Numbered from the stretch's first letter, positions 30,142 to 40,620 are shown. The stretch: DNA of 64,000 bases from Methanolobus vulcani (GCF_900100715.1 NZ_FNCA01000004.1:124001-188000), one strand, 5' to 3'. Translations and numbers: made by a program. Notes: generated by a model from the sequence alone, not told the origin.

Positions 30142-30239
30142 TCAACCACCATAAACAATTGAAGTGATATCGTTTATAAATATATCTGAAATTAGTTGAA
30201 AAATAAAGTAACAGAGTAATCATATATTATTCTTTATTG

Positions 30240-30475
30240 AAAATTGGGCTCCGTAGAAAAAATGGGAGGGAATTCGACAATGAATTATATCATAATAGAA
30301 ACTTGGTCGAAACGATGTTCTCTGTCCTGAAAAAGAAATATGGGGAAGAAGTAAAGGCAAAACGTTATCATAAGCAATCAAAAAAAGTAAAATTGAAGCA
30401 ATTAGTGCACAACCTTGACAGGTATGTCAAGGTTGTGTTTATTATTCAAACAAGGATTTCTACAGAACCAATAAA
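30240..30475 (+). mobile_element. Remnant of an IS transposase (C-terminal part)
   Basis: About 75 codons read as the C-terminus of a DDE transposase of the IS5/IS1182-like kind: [20 protein letters not shown] supplies the third acidic catalytic residue region (the YHNRNLVET helix with conserved Arg and Glu), then [18 protein letters not shown] and a final [11 protein letters not shown]. There is no start codon beyond a TTG at 30237, no N-terminal two thirds, and no terminal inverted repeat that I can identify, so it is dead. A perfect hairpin lies inside it (30408-30437). It sits between two lipoprotein genes and marks past insertion or rearrangement. Confidence 0.7.
30408..30437. repeat. 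Perfect 13-bp inverted repeat in the IS remnant
   Basis: CACAACCTTGACA (30408-30420) and TGTCAAGGTTGTG (30425-30437) are perfect complements around GGTA, followed by TTTATTATT. It lies inside the transposase reading frame ([11 protein letters not shown]). It would be a stable hairpin in either strand's RNA and could stop transcription out of the element. Confidence 0.8.
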
Positions 30476-30510
30476 CCAATTAATTTTAAGCATCAACTTT
30501 CTGATGAGTG

Positions 30511-31186
30511 TTAATATATAGTAAATATTTCTTTGTCTTCAGTCCATGTGATTTTGATGTAGTCATAATATCTAGAATTAATTGTCATTTCAGCTTCTTT
30601 TATTTCTTCGGGATTCAAATCACCAACATAATACCGATGAAGCAATTTACCTTCCACGATTAATTCCTTCTGTGTAGTTTGTCCAGTATATTCTTGTTGA
30701 TATGGACTATTGTAATCCACCAGTCCCGCATTATAAGAAGAGCTATCATTTGTCAAAGCCTCATATGCAACAGTTTCAAATATCTGTGCTTTATTTGGGA
30801 AATCCCCAGGATGGAAATTCCAATTATAAGTGACACCAACCACTCCACAGTACACATCATTTGCAGTAGCATCACCTGAATTAATAACTCTATATATGTA
30901 TCACATTATCTGTCATTGATGTTGACATGATTCTGAGTTCAGGATTACCCATTGGCTCTGGAGTTTGTATACTTTCAGATGTTTCAAGTTTGACTGATGA
31001 TTCCGGGTTATCAAACGATGCATTTGTTTCGTTGCTTTCTTCATTCATTTTAGACCCATCTTCAACTACTTGTTGTTTTTCTACCTGATTTGTACTAGAA
31101 TCTGTACAACCAGAAGCAATCAATGCCACAAAAATTAACATAATAGTTCCTATTTTTAGAATATATTTCAAATCAAATACCTTCAT
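30511..31186 (-). pseudogene. Lipoprotein gene broken by a 2-nt frameshift in a TA run
   Basis: The first frame (30890-31186) encodes a lipoprotein signal with lipobox IASGC, a Ser/Glu/Asn-rich linker, and the start of a domain (PELRIMSTSMTDNVIH). The second frame (to 30511) continues RVINSGDATANDVYCGVVGV and the rest of the domain. They would join smoothly if one TA unit were added in the run tatatat at 30891-30897: HIYRVINSG. So one gene of about 225 codons is split, either by real slippage (decay or phase variation) or by a sequencing error. The domain is beta-rich and unassigned. Confidence 0.75.
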
Positions 31187-31407: not shown

Positions 31408-31614
31408 CTACTTCTTGTAGGGAACTTTCTTGTTTATCCATAAATTAAACTCCTCAGTAACCTTCTTAGCTTCCGAATGTTTTGACCCTAGAAAATAACT
31501 TCCAGTTCTGATAAAGTCTTTATTACCCATTTTACCCGACTCATTAAGACTGAGTACAATAAAATCAACTCGGAATCTGAAAGACTCTTGCAAATCATCT
31601 TTTCCTATACACAC
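31408..31614 (-). CDS. Hypothetical 68-codon open frame
   Basis: Starts at a GTG inside the end of the sarcinarray-like gene (20-base overlap) and ends KKVPYKK. The sequence (FIVLSLNESGKMGNKDF, HSEAKKVTEEFNLWINKK) has ordinary protein composition, with alternate starts inside. No Shine-Dalgarno is convincing and no family is recognised. It could be a small third gene of the operon, or the leftover of a larger gene. Confidence 0.3.
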   Translation of the reverse strand: MCIGKDDLQESFRFRVDFIVLSLNESGKMGNKDFIRTGSYFLGSKHSEAKKVTEEFNLWINKKVPYKK

Positions 31615-32191
31615 TTACAACAACCAATGCGAGCACAGCACACAGCGTAGTAAATGCCGGAGTAGTCGGAGAAGTACTGTCACCAGATGATTCACCTGTG
31701 GATTCCTTAGGTGTTGAAGGACCATCGTAGTACTCTTCGGATATTGTGACGTAGGCGGCGGTGAATTCGCCACTTGTAATTAATTTAGCTGTGTTTAAAT
31801 CGTTCATTTGGTAGAAGAAATCAATAGGTGCACTTCCACCAGCCCATTCTTCATTTGGAGCAACAGTCCACTCAAATACTCTTGTTTCATTTACTTCCAT
31901 AACTTCATCTGTAAATGACCCCAACCTTGGTGTTGGGCCTTCTATAATATCAAAATCGTTTTCCCCAATAGATGTTAACATAACAGAAAGAAAGTTCTTT
32001 TTGTAACAAGTCACTTCAAATCTTAATTTGAATGGTTCACCAATTTTTAACAGTGGTTTTGGAATTGATGCACCAGGATACAATTGGTCATTATAGTACA
32101 TATCAACTTTAAGATTGGAACTTTCTGAAGATGCGGGCATAGAAAATAATACTAAAAAGCAAACGGTACATGCAATAATCAATTTATACAT
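31595..32191 (-). CDS. Sarcinarray/MAST-like surface protein with C-terminal sorting signal
   Basis: A 198-residue exported protein. It has a signal peptide (about 1-23), one beta-sandwich domain (about 27-155; LYPGASIPKPLLKIGEPFKL, WTVAPNEEWAGGSAPIDFFY), a Ser/Thr/Pro-rich linker, and a C-terminal tripartite tail: TPAF, a hydrophobic helix, and the basic end YRKR. Such tails are recognised by archaeosortases (PGF-CTERM-like), although the motif here is PAF. The domain resembles the sarcinarray family MAST-domain proteins of Methanosarcina, from memory. It begins 9 bases after the 1342-residue surface-protein gene. Confidence 0.65.
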   Translation of the reverse strand: MYKLIIACTVCFLVLFSMPASSESSNLKVDMYYNDQLYPGASIPKPLLKIGEPFKLRFEVTCYKKNFLSVMLTSIGENDFDIIEGPTPRLGSFTDEVMEVNETRVFEWTVAPNEEWAGGSAPIDFFYQMNDLNTAKLITSGEFTAAYVTISEEYYDGPSTPKESTGESSGDSTSPTTPAFTTLCAVLALVVVSVYRKR

Positions 32192-32200
32192 ATTCTTTCC

Positions 32201-35200
32201 TCAAAATTGTGATTCAAAATAATCGTAAGCCGTTGATTTTTCATCTCTTTCACCAATTTTATCTCCCACGCCTTTTGCACCAGGACCTACTATAGTTGCT
32301 GCATAGCCTGAAAAATCAAACGTTACTTCTTGGTTTCTTCCAATAGCAACCAAATTTCCATTTTCGTTTCTTTTAGTAGGATGGATAATCCTCTCGTTTT
32401 TTCGAATGTAACTCTGTGCATCGTGTCCGAAATATGGATTGAAAATACACTCATTGTCATTATCAATAACTTCGAACTTTTTGTACGCACCTTTCACATC
32501 ATACTCCCACACATTCACAGTACACACCCAATTCGGCGGAAGCACAGGCAGACCACATGGAACATATTCCAGGGACTTTTCAAGTCTCTTTTCGATCTTT
32601 TCGGCAAGCTGACCTGTAAGTTTTTCACTTGATTCGTCCAGTTTGTTTTGTAACTCATTGTTGATGTTCTCAAAACACTGATCTATGGTGTCCTGGCATA
32701 GTTCAATTGACTTGCAGATGCCTTCTGATACTCCTATACGCAGATCAGCTTCAAGCCGGTAAAGAACGGCATCCATTTCATCAGAATCTATTGTTGGATT
32801 ATCAGTTTGTATTTTCAGGCTGATGCGATACAGAATCTCATCCTGTAACGTGTTATCGGAAGCCATATCCACTATATTCTCATCGGAAAGCGAGTCAAGG
32901 TAAGTCTCTGTGATTGTTCTCACGTCATCTTCGCTGATCCAGGTGCTTAGAACCGGGTCGCTGGAAACTTCATCAACAATAGCTGTGGGAACCTGTTCCC
33001 TGATGGCATCGCTGTATTCACTCATCATTTTGCTGCGGTTCTGTTCAATAAAAGTGGTATCCGTTGAGACTCCGTTTGTGACAAGTTCAGTACTGTCGCT
33101 TGCAAGATCTTCAAGAAGGGAATCAATCTCAGCATTTGCATCTGAAATACTCTGGCTCATTGATTGAGAGACCATATCTTTTAGTGGTTCGGAAGCCTCC
33201 GAAAGCATTCCTGCAATATCATCACCTATGCCTGTGGAAAAAACACATACATTTCTGACTGCTAGTGGATAGACTGCTTTTCCTGTTGCATCCTCCCATT
33301 TGTATTGATTCTGGAGATCAAAATCCGGGTCATGGTACAGATAATCAGGGTACTGGTCCACAACTATTGTCATATTCTCGGTCCAGTTGTACTTGCTATT
33401 GGGCATTCCTACTACCTCCATTGTTTCGATAATACCCATTTCAGATGCCAGGGCTGTTGAAGCTTTATCCATGGCAGGGTTGTTGAAGATAACATCTGTT
33501 GATACTTTATTTTGCACAAGATCAAGAAGAGAATGTCCCTGTTCCTGTTCAAAAGATTTGTCGATATATTCCTCAAAAGAATTTTCTACATTTTTGTTCC
33601 GTTCCTTCAGTTCCTTGAGCAAACGGTCATAAGCCTCATTCTTTGAAATTGCACGACATGCATCACTACTGGTACTGAACTGACCTGAATCCAGATATTG
33701 AGATTGTTGAATAAAAGAATCTCGTTTGTAAGAAGCTTTCATTTCAGCAGCAAGGTCAAGTGAAGCCTCCTGAATCAATGTGGTTGGATTCTTCCCCAGA
33801 TTCTCACCAAGCAAGTACACTTCCCTTGTAGGATTATCAGTATTAATGGCATTGAACATGCTCTCCATTTCCCGGCTCATGTTCTTATGAAGCCATGAAG
33901 GAATATCGCAATAGACCTTCTCATCAGAAAGGTAAGTTCCGTCACTGTAAGTGTTGTATCCCTTTTCAATCTCAGCCAGATTCACATGCCGATCACGATA
34001 CTTATCTGCCGCATCACTGCATCCGGGATCATATTCCGGAAGGCCGTTGACGATTACGGTAATGTTCCTGTAATCATTGGCACTTCCTGCATCATAAGAG
34101 GAAACTAAACCATTATAACCACCAGAAGGCAGGTATTGGTGATAGACAATAGTTATGTTCTCTGTCTCGGTCTGAGTATGGGGAACCGAAAAACTATCCG
34201 TGAGTACCCTGTTCACCGAACCGCCAGAATCGCCGGAGTGATGAGTAAAGGATCCCGTCATGGAATTATATGTATTATACCACCAATGATAAGTATAATC
34301 GATTTTCCAGGACGTCTTGATCCTGAGTTTGATATTGTACGTTACTCTCCAGTCGAAACTATGGTTTTCCCATGAGAGATAGCCATCCGTACGTTCAGAG
34401 TCAAGCAGATTGTCATTACCCAGATAAGCATAGGAAACGTCCACACTGTCGCAGTTTATATCCGTTGAAACATGGTCAACATCTACATCAGTAAAATACC
34501 AGCTATGGGATGATGGAGTAAGACTTATCTTATGATCCAGATCAATAACGCCATTCCACTCGTAATCAGATGCCAGCGCACATGTATGTGATATCTTAAC
34601 CGGATAATGGCCTTTCCACGTTATATCTTTTCCACTGTATGAAACAGAATCATAGGTAGTAGGACCAGACTGCAAGCCATAAGGAATAGCTGTATCAAAT
34701 CCATCCCTGTAAACCTGGCCCTGTACCGTGCCACTGTAAACCTCATGAGTTACATCATGCAGCAGGTCAGGATAGGCATCGTTCCATTCATCATCATTGT
34801 AGACCCAGTTACTGTAAACCTCATTGGTGAAATTGGAAACAGAGACAATGATCTTAGAATTATTGACAACTTCTTCCATTGTTATGTTGGCTTCTTTCAT
34901 AGATCCATTGACACCCTGTTCAACACTTATGTTGAATGTCCCATGTTCTGACAGCTCATCGTATGTTGTGCTGATATTTTTCCCGGAATCATCTTCATAT
35001 GAACTCGTGCCTTTTTTCACGTCTTCATAGAGAACTTTGCCATTGTAATATGTGGTGTAGGTCAAAGCCCAGGGGTCTACTGAATCGAAAACACGTTTCT
35101 GTGTATAGAGAGTACCTGCATTCACAGAAGCTGCTAATGACGGACCGGTTACGATATTAAGAGGGCCATTCAGGTAATGCTGCCACGGACCATAGATAAA

Positions 35201-36229
35201 AGTCCTGATGTTGGTGGCTCCAAGCACAATATCCGATGTGATTCCACCATTAAGTTCATTTTTATATTCATTTACCAGTTCCTCAAGTAAAGGTTCCCTG
35301 GATGTTATGAGAGCACTCACATTCATGGAACCGGCTCTTGTTCTATTGTCTGTGAGATCCACAATGGTGTAATTGAGATTCTCAACGGTCATTGTATAAT
35401 ATACAGGATATCCCGGATCATCTGTTGGAGACCTGCTGATCTCTCTTTTGAGCGTACCGTTGATCATATCTATCCTGATCTGCAAAGGAGACACATCAGG
35501 ATCGATATTGATAGCATAATTGTTGAAAGTGTGCTGGTTTTCCTGATATGATGTACTTAGATATTCGTTGAAATACTCCGCTGTAATATCTTTAAGTGGA
35601 CTGCTGCCTACATTTAACCAGTTCACCGCTTTCTCCTCGCCATCGTACTCAAGGACAAGATAGGCATATCCGTATTCTGCGTTTGCAGGAATGACTAGTT
35701 CCTCTTCAAATTCAGAACATGTCCAGAACGAATGGGTTTCATCATAGGATATGGACTGGTAAACTGCCCCTGAGCCACTTTTAAGGATCAAAGTTCTTGG
35801 TTTGTCAGAAAACAGGCATGATATAGCTTCTAACACATTAGACGGAAGACTTACGCTAACCTGAATAGTATCTCCGGGTTCTGCATTCCTGTTATCCGGC
35901 TCAATGGAAAAACCGTCAGAGTCAATTTGTTCGTAAGCAAGATCCTCGGGTTTTATGACAGGATGTTCTCCCTGCCATGCAAGAGCTTCCATGCCCGCGT
36001 AGTTAAGACAGCGTGCAAGGTCAGATGAAGCAAATTCCACTGCAGTCTTTTCCATATCTGTAGTATCCGTATTGTGTATAACTTCTGCCAGCGCATAGTC
36101 AGTCTTTGTCAGGTATATCGATGCAACCACAGCAAAAAGCAGAATGAATATACCGATCACCGCAAAGGGAATATAAGCCCGGGTGTCCTGGCTAAAGCTT
36201 CGTTTTTCATTTGCGGGATCGGATATCAT
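32201..36229 (-). CDS. Giant membrane-anchored surface protein, DUF7286-like
   Basis: A 1342-residue protein with a cytoplasmic N-terminus of about 17 residues, one membrane helix (about 20-42, YIPFAVIGIFILLFAVV) and a very large extracellular part with many N-x-S/T sites. Beta-rich repeats with Trp and Tyr cover about 100-750; helical, Glu/Ser-rich coiled segments cover about 760-1240; near the end GLPVLPPNWVCTVNVWEYDVKG resembles the conserved C-terminal block of haloarchaeal DUF7286 proteins, as does the N-terminal helix. Those are encoded with pilus-type secretion genes. The N-terminal hydrophobic helix without a cleavable signal suits a pilin-like or pseudopilin-like subunit. Function unknown. 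Confidence 0.75.
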   Translation of the reverse strand: MISDPANEKRSFSQDTRAYIPFAVIGIFILLFAVVASIYLTKTDYALAEVIHNTDTTDMEKTAVEFASSDLARCLNYAGMEALAWQGEHPVIKPEDLAYEQIDSDGFSIEPDNRNAEPGDTIQVSVSLPSNVLEAISCLFSDKPRTLILKSGSGAVYQSISYDETHSFWTCSEFEEELVIPANAEYGYAYLVLEYDGEEKAVNWLNVGSSPLKDITAEYFNEYLSTSYQENQHTFNNYAINIDPDVSPLQIRIDMINGTLKREISRSPTDDPGYPVYYTMTVENLNYTIVDLTDNRTRAGSMNVSALITSREPLLEELVNEYKNELNGGITSDIVLGATNIRTFIYGPWQHYLNGPLNIVTGPSLAASVNAGTLYTQKRVFDSVDPWALTYTTYYNGKVLYEDVKKGTSSYEDDSGKNISTTYDELSEHGTFNISVEQGVNGSMKEANITMEEVVNNSKIIVSVSNFTNEVYSNWVYNDDEWNDAYPDLLHDVTHEVYSGTVQGQVYRDGFDTAIPYGLQSGPTTYDSVSYSGKDITWKGHYPVKISHTCALASDYEWNGVIDLDHKISLTPSSHSWYFTDVDVDHVSTDINCDSVDVSYAYLGNDNLLDSERTDGYLSWENHSFDWRVTYNIKLRIKTSWKIDYTYHWWYNTYNSMTGSFTHHSGDSGGSVNRVLTDSFSVPHTQTETENITIVYHQYLPSGGYNGLVSSYDAGSANDYRNITVIVNGLPEYDPGCSDAADKYRDRHVNLAEIEKGYNTYSDGTYLSDEKVYCDIPSWLHKNMSREMESMFNAINTDNPTREVYLLGENLGKNPTTLIQEASLDLAAEMKASYKRDSFIQQSQYLDSGQFSTSSDACRAISKNEAYDRLLKELKERNKNVENSFEEYIDKSFEQEQGHSLLDLVQNKVSTDVIFNNPAMDKASTALASEMGIIETMEVVGMPNSKYNWTENMTIVVDQYPDYLYHDPDFDLQNQYKWEDATGKAVYPLAVRNVCVFSTGIGDDIAGMLSEASEPLKDMVSQSMSQSISDANAEIDSLLEDLASDSTELVTNGVSTDTTFIEQNRSKMMSEYSDAIREQVPTAIVDEVSSDPVLSTWISEDDVRTITETYLDSLSDENIVDMASDNTLQDEILYRISLKIQTDNPTIDSDEMDAVLYRLEADLRIGVSEGICKSIELCQDTIDQCFENINNELQNKLDESSEKLTGQLAEKIEKRLEKSLEYVPCGLPVLPPNWVCTVNVWEYDVKGAYKKFEVIDNDNECIFNPYFGHDAQSYIRKNERIIHPTKRNENGNLVAIGRNQEVTFDFSGYAATIVGPGAKGVGDKIGERDEKSTAYDYFESQF

Positions 36230-36570
36230 AGACTAACCTTTTTTCAGCTTTTATGAGCTGGACATTGCAGGTAAGAAGAATATTTAAACTTTGTTATTTT
36301 ATTCTATTTTAGCTTAAATTTTATAACTGACATCCTATATTCATTTGTGTGAGAATAAAATCAAAAATCGAATATTTGTTCATGATAGGATTTGCTCAGA
36401 TATACCGAAACTAATCGAAACTGTAAAATATACTACATTTATACTAGCAGACATAATTAACTGAAAGTTGTAATTATCCATTCAGCTTTCTCAGCAATAA
36501 CTGAGCATTAGCTGTTTACAGAATTCAAACATTCAATATTTACAATTCACACTTATCAGGTTGGCACAAA
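36230..36570. promoter_or_regulatory. Divergent promoter region of the surface-protein gene and hisS
   Basis: A 341-bp AT-rich gap with no gene. On the plus strand CCGAAACT (36405-36412) and TCGAAACT (36415-36422) lie 10 bp apart, and the second leads into GTAAAATATAC, a likely BRE/TATA for hisS. That would give a leader of about 120 bases containing CTCAG-caataa-CTGAG (36490-36505). The minus-strand promoter of the large gene lies near 36290-36320. Confidence 0.4.
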
Positions 36571-37806
36571 ATGAAGATCACTAAACCAAGAGGCACACGT
36601 GATTTCCTCCCGGAGGACACAAGGAAAAGAAGATATGTAGAAGGCATACTGCGCCAGGTAGTTAAAAACTGGGGATTCAGTGAAATAATCACACCCACAT
36701 TCGAGAACCTGGAACTCTTTACCCTTAAATCAGGCGAAGGTGTAATCGGAGAGCTTTACAACTTCACTGACAAAGGCGACAGGGAAATGACACTGCGTCC
36801 CGAGCTTACAGCACCTGTAATGAGGATGTATGTCAATGAGATGCAGGCATATCAACAGCCTTTGAAATTATTCTACTTTGAAAACTGTTTCAGGTACGAG
36901 AGACCACAGAAGGGACGCTTCAGAGAGTTCTGGCAGTTTGGAGTCGAACTTATAGGCAGCAAAAGAATGGATGCTGATGCCGAAGTAATTGCCCTTGCAA
37001 CAGAGATGCTTAAGGCTGTAGGAATAAAAGGCGACCTGAACGTAAACAACCTTGGAGTTATCAGGCATCTTCTAAGTGTTCTTGAAACCGAGAACCAGAG
37101 CAAAATAATGAGACTTGTTGACAAGAAAGATTATGAAGGACTTGATAACTTCCTTGAAGAAATAAACGCTCCTGCCGACCTTCGTCAAAAACTTATCGAA
37201 CTTATCTCACTCACCGGCAATGATGCAATTGCAAAAGCAAGAGATATTCTGGGAGAACTTCCTGAAATAGATGACTTCCAAGAACTTCTTACCATGCTGG
37301 ATGCCTACGGAGTGGAATATACAATCAACTTTGGAATTGCCAGAGGACTTGATTATTACACAGGAACTGTTTTTGAGATTTACGCAGAAGGACTCGGTGC
37401 CCAGAACCAGGTATGTGGCGGCGGTTCATACCAGCTTATCCAGCTCTTTGGAGGCGGAGATGTCCCATCAACAGGTTTCGGTCTTGGTTTTGACAGGATA
37501 ATGGAAGTATGTGAACTTGAAACACCTGATGATGTACCTGTTGTAATCATTGCAAAAGATAGCACACGCCTGGATGCAATAAAAGCAGCCAATGAACTCA
37601 GGAAACACATGCCTGTTTACAATGATTTGATGAAGAGGAACTTCAAGGCTCAGTTATCACATGCCAATAATATTGGTGCAAAGCATGTCATTATCATTGG
37701 TGAGAAGGAAGTTGAAGCCGGAAAGGTAATGTTAAAGGATATGGTAAGCGGTGAACAGGAACTCCTGGTCATCGACGAAGTCATTACAAAACTCACAAAC
37801 AAATGA
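36571..37806 (+). CDS. hisS: Histidyl-tRNA synthetase
   Basis: Class II synthetase, 411 residues. Motif 1 is in the [15 protein letters not shown] region, motif 2 is [20 protein letters not shown] (about 109-128), and the histidine-binding motif [14 protein letters not shown] (about 253-266) and motif 3 [11 protein letters not shown] are intact. The anticodon-binding domain follows from about 325. Its TGA overlaps the ATG of a pilin-like gene (ATGA at 37803-37806), so the four surface genes downstream are expressed with it. Confidence 0.96.
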
Positions 37807-38294
37807 ACCGCTTTTCCGGAACTTTTCTGAAGAACGAGAGGGCAGCAGACGCCCTCCCCATGAGAATGGTGGTTGCTGTAATAGCAATAGGAGCATTATT
37901 ACTATTGATGTCAGGTACCGTTTCCTCTCTAATTGAAAGTGAGCAAACATATACCACCAAAACCATCATTTCTGAAATTGAATCAAATGCCGAGCAAATG
38001 TCGGCAAAAGGTTCAGGCAGCATTGTTACCCTTGATGTGAACGTTCCTTCAGGTGTGGAGATCATATTTGGAGCGCTTCCTGAAAATGAAGATGCCTGGC
38101 CCTCAGATGCCGATAACTATTATATTGAGATTAATGGGAAGCAGATCATTGGAGAGTCATCTGCATCTTATTCTAATTCCACATTAAATGACAGTTTTAT
38201 TCTCAATCCAGGATCTCACATATTGACTCTTGAAAGTGTCCGCGATCAAAATGGAAAAATTTTTATTGCACTTAGTGATAAGTCGCAACCATAA
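37803..38294 (+). CDS. Pilin-like membrane-anchored protein 1
   Basis: A 163-residue protein with a short charged N-terminus ([19 protein letters not shown]), one hydrophobic helix (about 20-42) and an extracellular part that is a small beta-rich domain with several N-x-S/T sites. The layout, with no lipobox and no C-terminal anchor, fits an archaeal pilin or pseudopilin with an N-terminal helix for assembly. No classical prepilin peptidase site is obvious. It overlaps hisS by four bases and the next gene by one (TAATG). Confidence 0.65.
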
Positions 38295-38923
38295 TGAAAG
38301 AACGAAAAGAAGTTGGCATTAACCATCTGATCACGGATGATTCTGCCTGGATAGACTTGCTGCTCTCAAAAACGGCATTAATACTGGCTACTCTGATAAT
38401 ACTTGCAGCAGTTTACAGCCTTGCAGGCAGCTCTGCAGACCTTGTCAGAAAAGATGAACTGGAAATCATAGCCACAGAGATTGCTTCAAACATAGATTCG
38501 GCAGGATCATCCCGTTCAGATAATTCTGTCAACTGCATTACATTTGATCCTGAAAGCTATGAACAGCAATTAAGCAAGAGAAACGAACTGAACATATCGG
38601 TCAGCGGTGAGTATATATTCTGCACTTTAACAGAGAACGGACGAGACATCTCAGCTGCCAGGCAGCTAAGTTACAGGACACTTCCTCTAAGTCCCAATAA
38701 ATTCCGCAATTTACTATCAGGAACATTCGGTGCAGATGGCAACAGCAGCCAGCCGATTAACTCTGCTTTTCCATACGCTGACGTAACTGATTTTCTTGCT
38801 GATAGAGGAACTGGAGAGCTTTATCTTAATACAAGTAAAGAGCTTCATATTCAGAAAACAACAGTATTTGTTACAGACGGAAGCGAGGTGAACGGACTTG
38901 AATATATCCTCGTTTACCAGTGA
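38294..38923 (+). CDS. Pilin-like membrane-anchored protein 2
   Basis: A 209-residue protein with a cytoplasmic stretch (about 1-25), a membrane helix (about 26-48, TALILATLIILAAVYSL) and an extracellular part of about 160 residues with one cysteine pair (NCITF and IFCTL). The start of the extracellular region (RKDELEIIATEIASNIDSAG) is a helix as in pilin stalks. It has the same architecture as its neighbours but no recognised family. It shares one base with the previous gene's stop. Confidence 0.65.
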   Translation: MKERKEVGINHLITDDSAWIDLLLSKTALILATLIILAAVYSLAGSSADLVRKDELEIIATEIASNIDSAGSSRSDNSVNCITFDPESYEQQLSKRNELNISVSGEYIFCTLTENGRDISAARQLSYRTLPLSPNKFRNLLSGTFGADGNSSQPINSAFPYADVTDFLADRGTGELYLNTSKELHIQKTTVFVTDGSEVNGLEYILVYQ

Positions 38924-39404
38924 TGAGAGAGCACTTCTCGAACCAAATAATGACATCATAGCCACTGCTCTTGTTGTTATCGGTTTTATTGTATTTGCTG
39001 CGATCCTTTCAAAGACATTCATCGCATTCAACGGCAACTCCCAGGCACTTGAGAACTATGAACAGGCTGCAATGATAGCAAGTGATATTGCATCCTACCC
39101 GCCGCTTCAGGGAAGCAGGCAGGAACTAATTTCTGCAGATACACTGGAGGTGCTGGCAAATCCTTCACAAGACCCGCAATCACACTACATGTTCTTCCAC
39201 CGGTTTTCATCAAACCTTGATTTCTATGTAGAGGTACGAACTGATGACGGTAATTATCAATGGATCATCAGTGAGGGAAATACTGCATTGAACGGGAGAG
39301 ATGTAATAGCTTCATCAGTACCTGTTGTGATAGAACTTGGAAGCAATGCACGCTGTGAACCCGGGACGATAACCGTGAAACTTGTGCAGAACGGATGGAG
39401 TTGA
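38898..39404 (+). CDS. Pilin-like membrane-anchored protein 3 (TTG start)
   Basis: A 168-residue protein with an N-terminal charged segment, one helix (about 19-42, IATALVVIGFIVFAAIL) and an extracellular part with ENYEQAAMIASDIASYP, a stalk-like helix, then beta strands. The start is a TTG at 38898, chosen because GAGGTG (38885-38890) lies at the right distance and no ATG precedes the helix; it overlaps the previous gene by 26 bases. Family not identified; related in layout to the haloarchaeal DUF7283-DUF7288 set. Confidence 0.6.
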   Translation: MNISSFTSDERALLEPNNDIIATALVVIGFIVFAAILSKTFIAFNGNSQALENYEQAAMIASDIASYPPLQGSRQELISADTLEVLANPSQDPQSHYMFFHRFSSNLDFYVEVRTDDGNYQWIISEGNTALNGRDVIASSVPVVIELGSNARCEPGTITVKLVQNGWS

Positions 39405-39444
39405 AAGTCGACCCTGAAAACGAAATAAAAAACGGTGATTATGA

Positions 39445-40620
39445 ATGAGAATTATAGACGATGATAGTGGATTTTCTACCAGCATTGATGCAATTTTGTT
39501 CCTCGTACTGGTATCCGTCTCTGCTGTAATACTTTTTCCATCTATTGCTGCGGATGAGCAGTATCGTTCCGCATCCTATTCATCTGCACAGGATATGGAT
39601 ACCCAGCTCATGAACACAATAATGAGCAGCACACTGGAAGAATTTGAGTATACTGTAAAACCAGCCGAACTTGCTGGAATTGATGTGAATCTATCGGAAG
39701 ATTCAATTCTTGGAAATGCCGAAGATACACTATTTGCAAAAGAGCAACAACATCGTACATTTTCAGACCTTGTAGCCGAAGGCCTTGTGCTTGGTCTGGT
39801 CATGGAAAAGAACGGCACTGAAAAACCTCTGAATCCAATGACAAAGATGCAGAGAATAGAAACTGAAAAAGCTATCGAAGAACATCTCAAAAGGACTATA
39901 GGACAGAGATACAATTACAGGTTTGAGGCACACTGGCAACCTGTTTCAGGATACAATATACACAGCGACATAGTAGTAGGTGAAACAGCTCCGTTGGATG
40001 CCATTAAACAGAAAGCCAGGATATCGGTTCCTGTGACATATACTGTAACTAGAGACGAAATATGTCAGCCATTCAATGAAAGCAATATCTATGCTTCTGT
40101 GAACTCACCAGATGCTGACAAAGAACTTCATAACATGTTCAACTCAAGTATTATTACAGCATCTGAAGGAGCTTCTGATATAATAACAGATATCGTATTT
40201 CCGTATGAATACCTGTCATCACTTAATGGAACTGAGATATCCATAGACAGCGAGCAACTTGCATGCATTGCAGGGCCGGATAATGCAAATTACAGCAGTC
40301 CGATCATCAAGAGTGCGCTTGGTTGCGTGAACTACACTGTAAAAGACCTGTACGGACTTAACGTTGAACTGACAACTGAAGAACAAAGTATCAGTCTGGA
40401 TTTTGTGAATATGGCACATGACCTTATCAAAGAGAAAAATACTAACCTGATATCAGAGCATATATTTGCGAGCCAGAGTGATGATATCGACCAGACTGTT
40501 GCCCTCATATGTAATGCATCTGATAACAGCAGCAGAATTGAACTTGCAGATACACAACTCTCAAAGATATACAGGACCGCAAATCCTGGTGGTGCGGATA
40601 TTATAATAATGATCTGGTGA
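39445..40620 (+). CDS. Pilin-like surface protein 4, DUF7284-like
   Basis: A 391-residue protein with an N-terminal DSGFSTSIDAILFLVLVSVS helix (about 8-32) and a long extracellular part. The GFSTSIDAILFL start and the HRTFSDLVAEGLVLG segment (about 110-125) resemble haloarchaeal DUF7284. Later regions hold VSVPVTYTVTRDEICQPF and four cysteines. GGTGA lies 12 bases before the ATG at 39445, after a 40-base gap. It closes the hisS-led operon. Confidence 0.65.
   Translation: MRIIDDDSGFSTSIDAILFLVLVSVSAVILFPSIAADEQYRSASYSSAQDMDTQLMNTIMSSTLEEFEYTVKPAELAGIDVNLSEDSILGNAEDTLFAKEQQHRTFSDLVAEGLVLGLVMEKNGTEKPLNPMTKMQRIETEKAIEEHLKRTIGQRYNYRFEAHWQPVSGYNIHSDIVVGETAPLDAIKQKARISVPVTYTVTRDEICQPFNESNIYASVNSPDADKELHNMFNSSIITASEGASDIITDIVFPYEYLSSLNGTEISIDSEQLACIAGPDNANYSSPIIKSALGCVNYTVKDLYGLNVELTTEEQSISLDFVNMAHDLIKEKNTNLISEHIFASQSDDIDQTVALICNASDNSSRIELADTQLSKIYRTANPGGADIIIMIW

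Follow-up and report, generated by a model that had tools for sequence, protein, structure and literature searches.

Subclade 4F of the archaeal pilus ATPases has a Cys-rich N-terminus and is prominent in methanomicrobia (PMC4858521, Makarova 2016). Its dedicated small pilin (arCOG02981) usually stands alone, is prone to tandem duplication, and occurs with other components in Methanocella. Further parts are a coiled-coil protein (arCOG07564), an S-layer-like protein and, in haloarchaea, an FtsZ-family neighbour (PMC4858521). The haloarchaeal PilB2/PilC2 regulon lies next to cetZ2, and its biological role is called unknown (PMC9856176).

The window, a stretch of 64,000 nucleotides from Methanolobus vulcani, contains a set of pilin-like genes beside hisS. 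The features of this set match those of the predicted 4F and PilB2-C2 type IV pili, with its ATPase a putative 4F member, and we read it as a variant of these pili and not as a new system. An earlier note on this DNA had called the system possibly undescribed, which does not agree with these precedents (PMC4858521, PMC9856176). In common with them, the M. vulcani set has TadC next to a GspE with a Cys-rich N-terminus, small pilins that stand alone in tandem, a large surface protein, the DUF7311/7285/7284/7286 set and perhaps the coiled-coil protein. The N-terminal extension of its GspE reads CPYRS..CSEC..C, and is similar in relatives. Candidates for the small pilins typical of 4F are present as a tandem pair on contig C5, and their counterparts adjoin GspE-TadC in the f5 and f14 genomes. 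The set differs in that its genes lie over three contigs, the pilin genes stand behind hisS, and a sarcinarray partner is added. It also departs from haloarchaeal PilB2-C2 in that DUF7286 and sarcinarray contain a variable block, of which relatives have cassettes. No CetZ/FtsZ-family gene was recognised beside the M. vulcani loci; such a neighbour is not required, because it is a haloarchaea-specific feature.

The haloarchaeal counterpart is usually a single cluster in the order coiled coil (DUF7310)-DUF7311-GspE-TadC-DUF7283-DUF7285-DUF7284-DUF7286. A CetZ gene was found beside it in the two loci checked (L124 and L125), and the cluster fits the PilB2/PilC2 regulon adjoining cetZ2. The DUF7310 match is clear in haloarchaea and stands at only 0.019 in L220, and the M. 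vulcani coiled-coil protein gave no DUF7310 match. The earlier note had likened the window genes to haloarchaeal DUF7283-DUF7288 sets that travel with GspE/TadC. The relation and the company of GspE and TadC in one cluster are both borne out. The membership needs correction: the members are DUF7310, DUF7311, DUF7283, DUF7285, DUF7284 and DUF7286, and neither DUF7287 nor DUF7288 was seen in the haloarchaeal loci examined. In the open-access literature we found no paper on DUF7283-7288, and sarcinarray in one table only.

The gene set around hisS

The genes and the variable segment in the window are as follows.

31595..32191, minus strand: sarcinarray family MAST-domain surface protein, 198 aa (NCBIfam TIGR04209 1.8e-47, TIGR04204 6.5e-45)
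32201..36229, minus strand: DUF7286 protein, 1342 aa (Pfam PF23957 1.4e-39, residues 947-1335)
32201..32437, minus strand: hypervariable C-terminal end of DUF7286 (the tip, residues about 1265-1342), from dS and distance tests
36571..37806, plus strand: hisS, histidyl-tRNA synthetase (PF13393 5e-64), conserved neighbour
37803..38294, plus strand: P1, DUF7311-like pilin, 163 aa (hhalign to haloarchaeal DUF7311 96%, 3.6e-9; a single-pair figure, not a database E-value)
38294..38923, plus strand: P2, N-terminally anchored pilin-like protein in the DUF7283 position, 209 aa (from gene order)
38898..39404, plus strand: P3, DUF7285-like pilin, 168 aa (hhalign to haloarchaeal DUF7285 97%, 4.2e-11; likewise a single-pair figure)
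39445..40620, plus strand: DUF7284 protein, 391 aa (Pfam PF23955 6.9e-16)

The earlier note had placed five open reading frames and hisS between 32201 and 40620, and all six lie exactly there; its DUF7286-like protein of 1342 residues is indeed matched by that Pfam family. The set itself extends to 31595, since the note had overlooked the sarcinarray gene. This gene is directly 3' of DUF7286 on the minus strand, and rpsO follows DUF7284 on the plus-strand side. The sarcinarray protein is a full-length family member with an N-terminal signal peptide and, by the NCBIfam ArtA-sort signature, an ArtA-type C-terminal sorting region. The DUF7286 protein has an N-terminal anchor followed by a very large outer part. 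Its nearest named matches, from M. bombayensis and M. vulcani, are 81% identical. The genome has a single DUF7286 gene and a single sarcinarray gene. Overlaps join hisS to P1 (4 bases), P1 to P2 and P2 to P3; therefore hisS, P1, P2, P3 and DUF7284 are probably co-transcribed. About 1.1 kb beyond the sarcinarray gene, an ORF at 30237-30521 looks by eye like the C-terminal piece of an IS transposase.

Searching Pfam with the smaller proteins gave no convincing match for P1 or P2, and for P3 a weak DUF7285 match only (0.072). Profile comparison of P2 with DUF7283 was not significant. The profile searches suggested in the earlier note have thereby placed DUF7286, DUF7284, P1 (as DUF7311) and P3 (as DUF7285), and have left P2 unmatched.

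DUF7286 was found in 60 of 100 relatives, by a family model derived from haloarchaea that weak copies may escape. A sarcinarray gene accompanies it in all 39 non-haloarchaeal loci read and in none of the 15 haloarchaeal ones. The order hisS-P1-P2-P3-DUF7284-rpsO recurs across genera of Methanosarcinaceae, and among the loci read the DUF7286-sarcinarray pair lies away from this run except in Methanolobus, the only genus in which DUF7286 adjoins hisS. The f5 and f14 genomes have a single run P1-P2-P3-DUF7284-DUF7286-sarcinarray. This recurrence across Methanosarcinaceae and f5/f14 means that the layout is not due to chance. hisS flanks the set in Methanosarcinaceae only and is absent beside it in the f5, f14 and haloarchaeal loci. 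As the f5/f14 run is complete without hisS, this gene is a synteny partner and not a component; the notion of a system built around hisS reduces to synteny. Two other neighbourhoods were observed. Genes that look by eye like MoxR, DUF58 and vWA-type genes lie near DUF7286 in g6/g12 genomes (L054 2-5619, L055 2-679, L062 3-4346), and vWA and MoxR are listed as possible pilus regulators (PMC4858521). G107 (L129 161-6046) has, immediately upstream of P1 and on the other strand, a second group of pilin-like proteins with an N-terminal anchor.

All five window families carry D-x-x-[A/G] just ahead of the N-terminal hydrophobic stretch (P1 28/32, P2 31/32, DUF7284 28/33, DUF7286 46/48). The chance level, from other N-terminally anchored ORFs in the same loci, is 31 of 193. 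The automatic count for P3 is unreliable because a downstream D-x-x-A inside the helix was caught; its alignment consensus, DERAxLEP, contains the motif. The AlphaFold model of P1 has a helix at residues 17-69 (53 residues) and an eight-strand all-beta domain (pLDDT 84), and that of DUF7284 a helix at 10-53 and an alpha/beta domain (pLDDT 80). Profiles and models of both proteins gave no significant match to a solved structure in the PDB, and the fold evidence is therefore supportive in outline only. In this outline the window proteins appear type IV pilin-like, with an N-terminal helix, a peptidase-type site at which cleavage is predicted, and a globular head. What the earlier note had said of pilin-like proteins is thus upheld by the layout, the motif and the two helix-plus-head models, with no solved pilin matched.

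The shaft probably lies elsewhere in the genome. In f5 and f14, GspE-TadC is adjoined by one small pilin or by two, which have an Ig-like head and motifs such as DERGVEGLPVR. M. vulcani has this family as the tandem pair on C5 (39741-40676), which matches CarboxypepD_reg and DUF7382 weakly. Counting full-length matches only, 60 of 100 genomes have both the small pilins and the GspE described below, 7 the GspE only, none the pilins only and 33 neither. The two C5 pilins are the best candidates for major pilins. A coiled-coil gene lies beside them, and similar genes lie beside the f5 small pilins and beside P1 in L129.

A probable GspE/TadC motor

Seven T2SSE matches were found in the M. vulcani genome with Pfam. 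They belong to the archaellum locus (C13), four other pilus-type loci (C8, C15, C9 and C20), a PIN-domain ATPase on C5, assigned from sequence, and a divergent GspE on C10:

C10 11888-14566: divergent GspE, 893 aa, followed by a 655-aa TadC

The five best-scoring loci were examined as the motor; the C10 GspE, being divergent, comes only sixth in Pfam score. GspEs of the haloarchaeal DUF7286 clusters match it with 220-277 bits and the five other M. vulcani GspEs with about 48-111 bits only, which makes it by far their nearest homologue in this genome. Those five match the C10 GspE with 55-111 bits. The adjoining TadC (L216 10530-12497) matches haloarchaeal TadC with up to 221 bits.

The C10-type GspE and DUF7286 occur together in 60 of the 100 genomes; 7 have the GspE only, none has DUF7286 only and 33 have neither (Fisher 6e-20). 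The relatives are not independent, and presence was therefore shuffled within genera, four of which contain both states. The observed agreement, 93/100, was attained in none of 20000 shuffles. The dependence is one-way: DUF7286 never occurs without the C10-type GspE. Decay or incomplete assembly seems to lie behind several exceptions. The GspE is shortened in G004, split by about 20 kb in G025 and in two pieces in G097; G058 has a GspE with a stop and a 279-aa DUF7286 remnant, and in G057 the pilin run is broken. The earlier note had placed the motor genes outside the window and proposed a search of the genome for an ATPase and a platform; the C10 pair, whose GspE tracks DUF7286, answers to both.

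Flanks of about 40 DUF7286 loci contained no GspE/TadC outside haloarchaea. The M. vulcani set is dispersed over contigs C5, C10 and C14, which may still be near each other on the chromosome. Other loci were considered as the motor and rejected: orthologues of the pilin-free GspE/TadC loci L046 and L047 agree with DUF7286 in only 65 and 52 of 100 genomes, and L048 and L049 are also present in genomes without the set (39 genomes checked). A search for a prepilin peptidase that tracks the set found none. In most genomes there is just one A24 peptidase, with or without the system, so processing is probably shared; an A24 gene lies beside GspE in f14 only. In two f14 loci (L221 12456-14597, assigned by Pfam, and L227 12853-15438, assigned by sequence likeness), a HerA-like ATPase (DUF87), an A24 prepilin peptidase and a DUF7311-like pilin adjoin GspE-TadC.

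The DUF7286 tip and sarcinarray block

Together with the sarcinarray gene, the last ~75 residues of DUF7286 make up a hypervariable block that is linked and has a genealogy of its own. In 16 Methanolobus genomes, tip and sarcinarray distances correlate at r 0.75, while tip and body correlate at 0.14, sarcinarray and body at 0.13, and the two halves of the body at 0.76. The partial correlation of tip and sarcinarray is 0.74 (0/5000 permutations); in the wider family of 32 sequences it is 0.62 (0/2000 permutations). Synonymous divergence also changes at the block. Between the window and G001 or G022, dS is 0.7-0.8 in the N-terminal part, 1.8 or saturated in the tip and 1.5-1.7 in sarcinarray. 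With G010 as the comparison, tip (0.61) and sarcinarray (0.43) lie below the N-terminal part (0.99), although G010 is no nearer by hisS (0.68, versus 0.44 and 0.65 for G001/G022). Most simply, these values would mean that recombination exchanges tip and sarcinarray jointly.

G049, G061, G041, G026 and other relatives have DUF7286 copies in tandem that are truncated at the 5' end, each with a sarcinarray gene of its own behind it. Many of the genomes analysed are drafts, and several cassette arrays stop at contig ends. One truncated copy in G049 is 99-100% identical in DNA to the full gene for about 1 kb, after which identity falls to ~60% through the DUF7286 end and sarcinarray; the dS values of this pair are 0 (body), 1.6 (tip) and 1.0 (sarcinarray). 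G061 has an arm of 83-99% identity, then a stretch of 52-69% and a right end that is partly conserved. In these relatives only, cassettes are a possible source of new blocks through gene conversion. M. vulcani has one copy of each gene, and there the source would therefore be another species or strain.

The arrangement in relatives resembles Neisseria pilE/pilS and Borrelia vls, with a complete gene, truncated copies, near-identical arms and a variable end. It differs in that two adjacent genes vary as a unit and that M. vulcani has one DUF7286 copy. We found no earlier description of the DUF7286-sarcinarray pairing or its joint variation, and the linked block is new as far as found in the open-access literature.

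Several further features of these genes were observed. A second variable zone lies at window positions 33952-34672 on the minus strand (DUF7286 residues ~520-760), where DNA identity to G001/G022 is 55-76% between stretches of 80-90%. Four sarcinarray genes in tandem follow one DUF7286 in G016 (C7:148533-150846) and in L060 (11088-14353), and in L060 one sarcinarray is fused to a 53-residue DUF7286 remnant. Four g8 genomes (G032, G042, G048 and G054) have a lone sarcinarray in a frame of 235-236 aa without DUF7286 and GspE; sarcinarray may therefore have a role of its own.

Proposed assembly and alternatives

The C10 GspE would power assembly, with TadC as the platform. The shaft would probably consist of the two small tandem Ig-type pilins of C5, and P1, P2, P3, DUF7284 and DUF7286 would be processed at their shared D-x-x-[A/G] site and then join the filament as minor or tip subunits. 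The C-terminal end of DUF7286 would then be displayed outward. That a linked pair varies together suggests contact, and an exported, C-terminally anchored sarcinarray is the natural partner, so the surface-anchored protein may bind the DUF7286 end. On the same cell, it would be a cap or anchor that must fit; on a neighbouring cell, it would be a receptor in a matched ligand and receptor pair. The pair might set the specificity of adhesion, and recombination, whether with truncated cassettes or across species, could create new specificities by replacing both partners at once. Ups pili of Sulfolobales, which act in species recognition, would be comparable should the pair determine partner specificity. 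They differ in that work cited in PMC8416519 ascribes their specificity chiefly to the major pilin UpsA and to S-layer glycans, and not to a linked protein pair.

The component identities, the gene order, the dependence of DUF7286 on GspE and the linked block are established at the level of sequence and phyletic pattern. A pilus with a dedicated motor is highly probable. A recognition role of the tip-sarcinarray block is tentative, falling just short of an even chance, and the combined account, a pilus of the 4F kind with a dedicated motor and an exchangeable tip-sarcinarray recognition module, is moderately probable. Counting against the combined account are P1 and DUF7284 without a solved pilin match, P2 unmatched to DUF7283, the missing set-tracking peptidase, and the lone sarcinarray of g8, by which sarcinarray can act alone. 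It is possible, though rather unlikely, that the block serves recognition of self and non-self or of partners, with tip and sarcinarray as one allelic block and reserve cassettes in some species; linked ligand-receptor recognition loci would then be comparable.

An ordinary 4F adhesion pilus might also produce such a pattern if its exposed proteins drift fast, for example under virus pressure, with no matched-partner or switching role. Exposed pilin-like proteins do commonly evolve fast (PMC4858521), and most Methanolobus genomes are single copy without truncated DUF7286 cassettes. However, drift alone would neither raise dS with dN across a sharp boundary nor leave tip and sarcinarray with a common genealogy uncoupled from the adjacent body. 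Virus pressure on both could still act, and we hold drift to be an unlikely explanation. The long carrier with a variable C-terminus, the small gene directly downstream and, also downstream, truncated copies of the C-terminus that have a small gene of their own recall contact-dependent toxins. DUF7286 would then have a toxic C-terminal end, sarcinarray would be the immunity protein, and the cassettes would be orphan modules as in CDI/Rhs. Those polymorphic toxins have a C-terminal toxin domain and a dedicated immunity protein, which the DUF7286-sarcinarray pair does not share: the variable ends remain homologous within one family, Pfam finds no toxin domain, and copies differ by 40-50%, not by swapped folds. 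Sarcinarray is exported and anchored, unlike the usual cytosolic immunity proteins, and a toxin/immunity function is very improbable. Assembly by another GspE/TadC pair, such as the pilin-free loci on C8 or C15, is in keeping with pilins acting in trans, as proposed for archaea (PMC4858521), and with the presence of two pilin-free loci in this genome. The agreement of 65 and 52 of 100 genomes for C8/C15-type orthologues, against 93 for the C10 GspE, leaves only a very small probability for it.

The combined account, a 4F-type pilus with its own motor and an exchangeable tip, would tie the unnamed families DUF7283-7286, DUF7310, DUF7311 and sarcinarray to one pilus type. Methanosarcina acetivorans, a tractable methanogen, is positive for DUF7284, DUF7286 and sarcinarray. 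With the linked variable pair, the question of whether archaea choose partners via matched, exchangeable surface proteins becomes testable.
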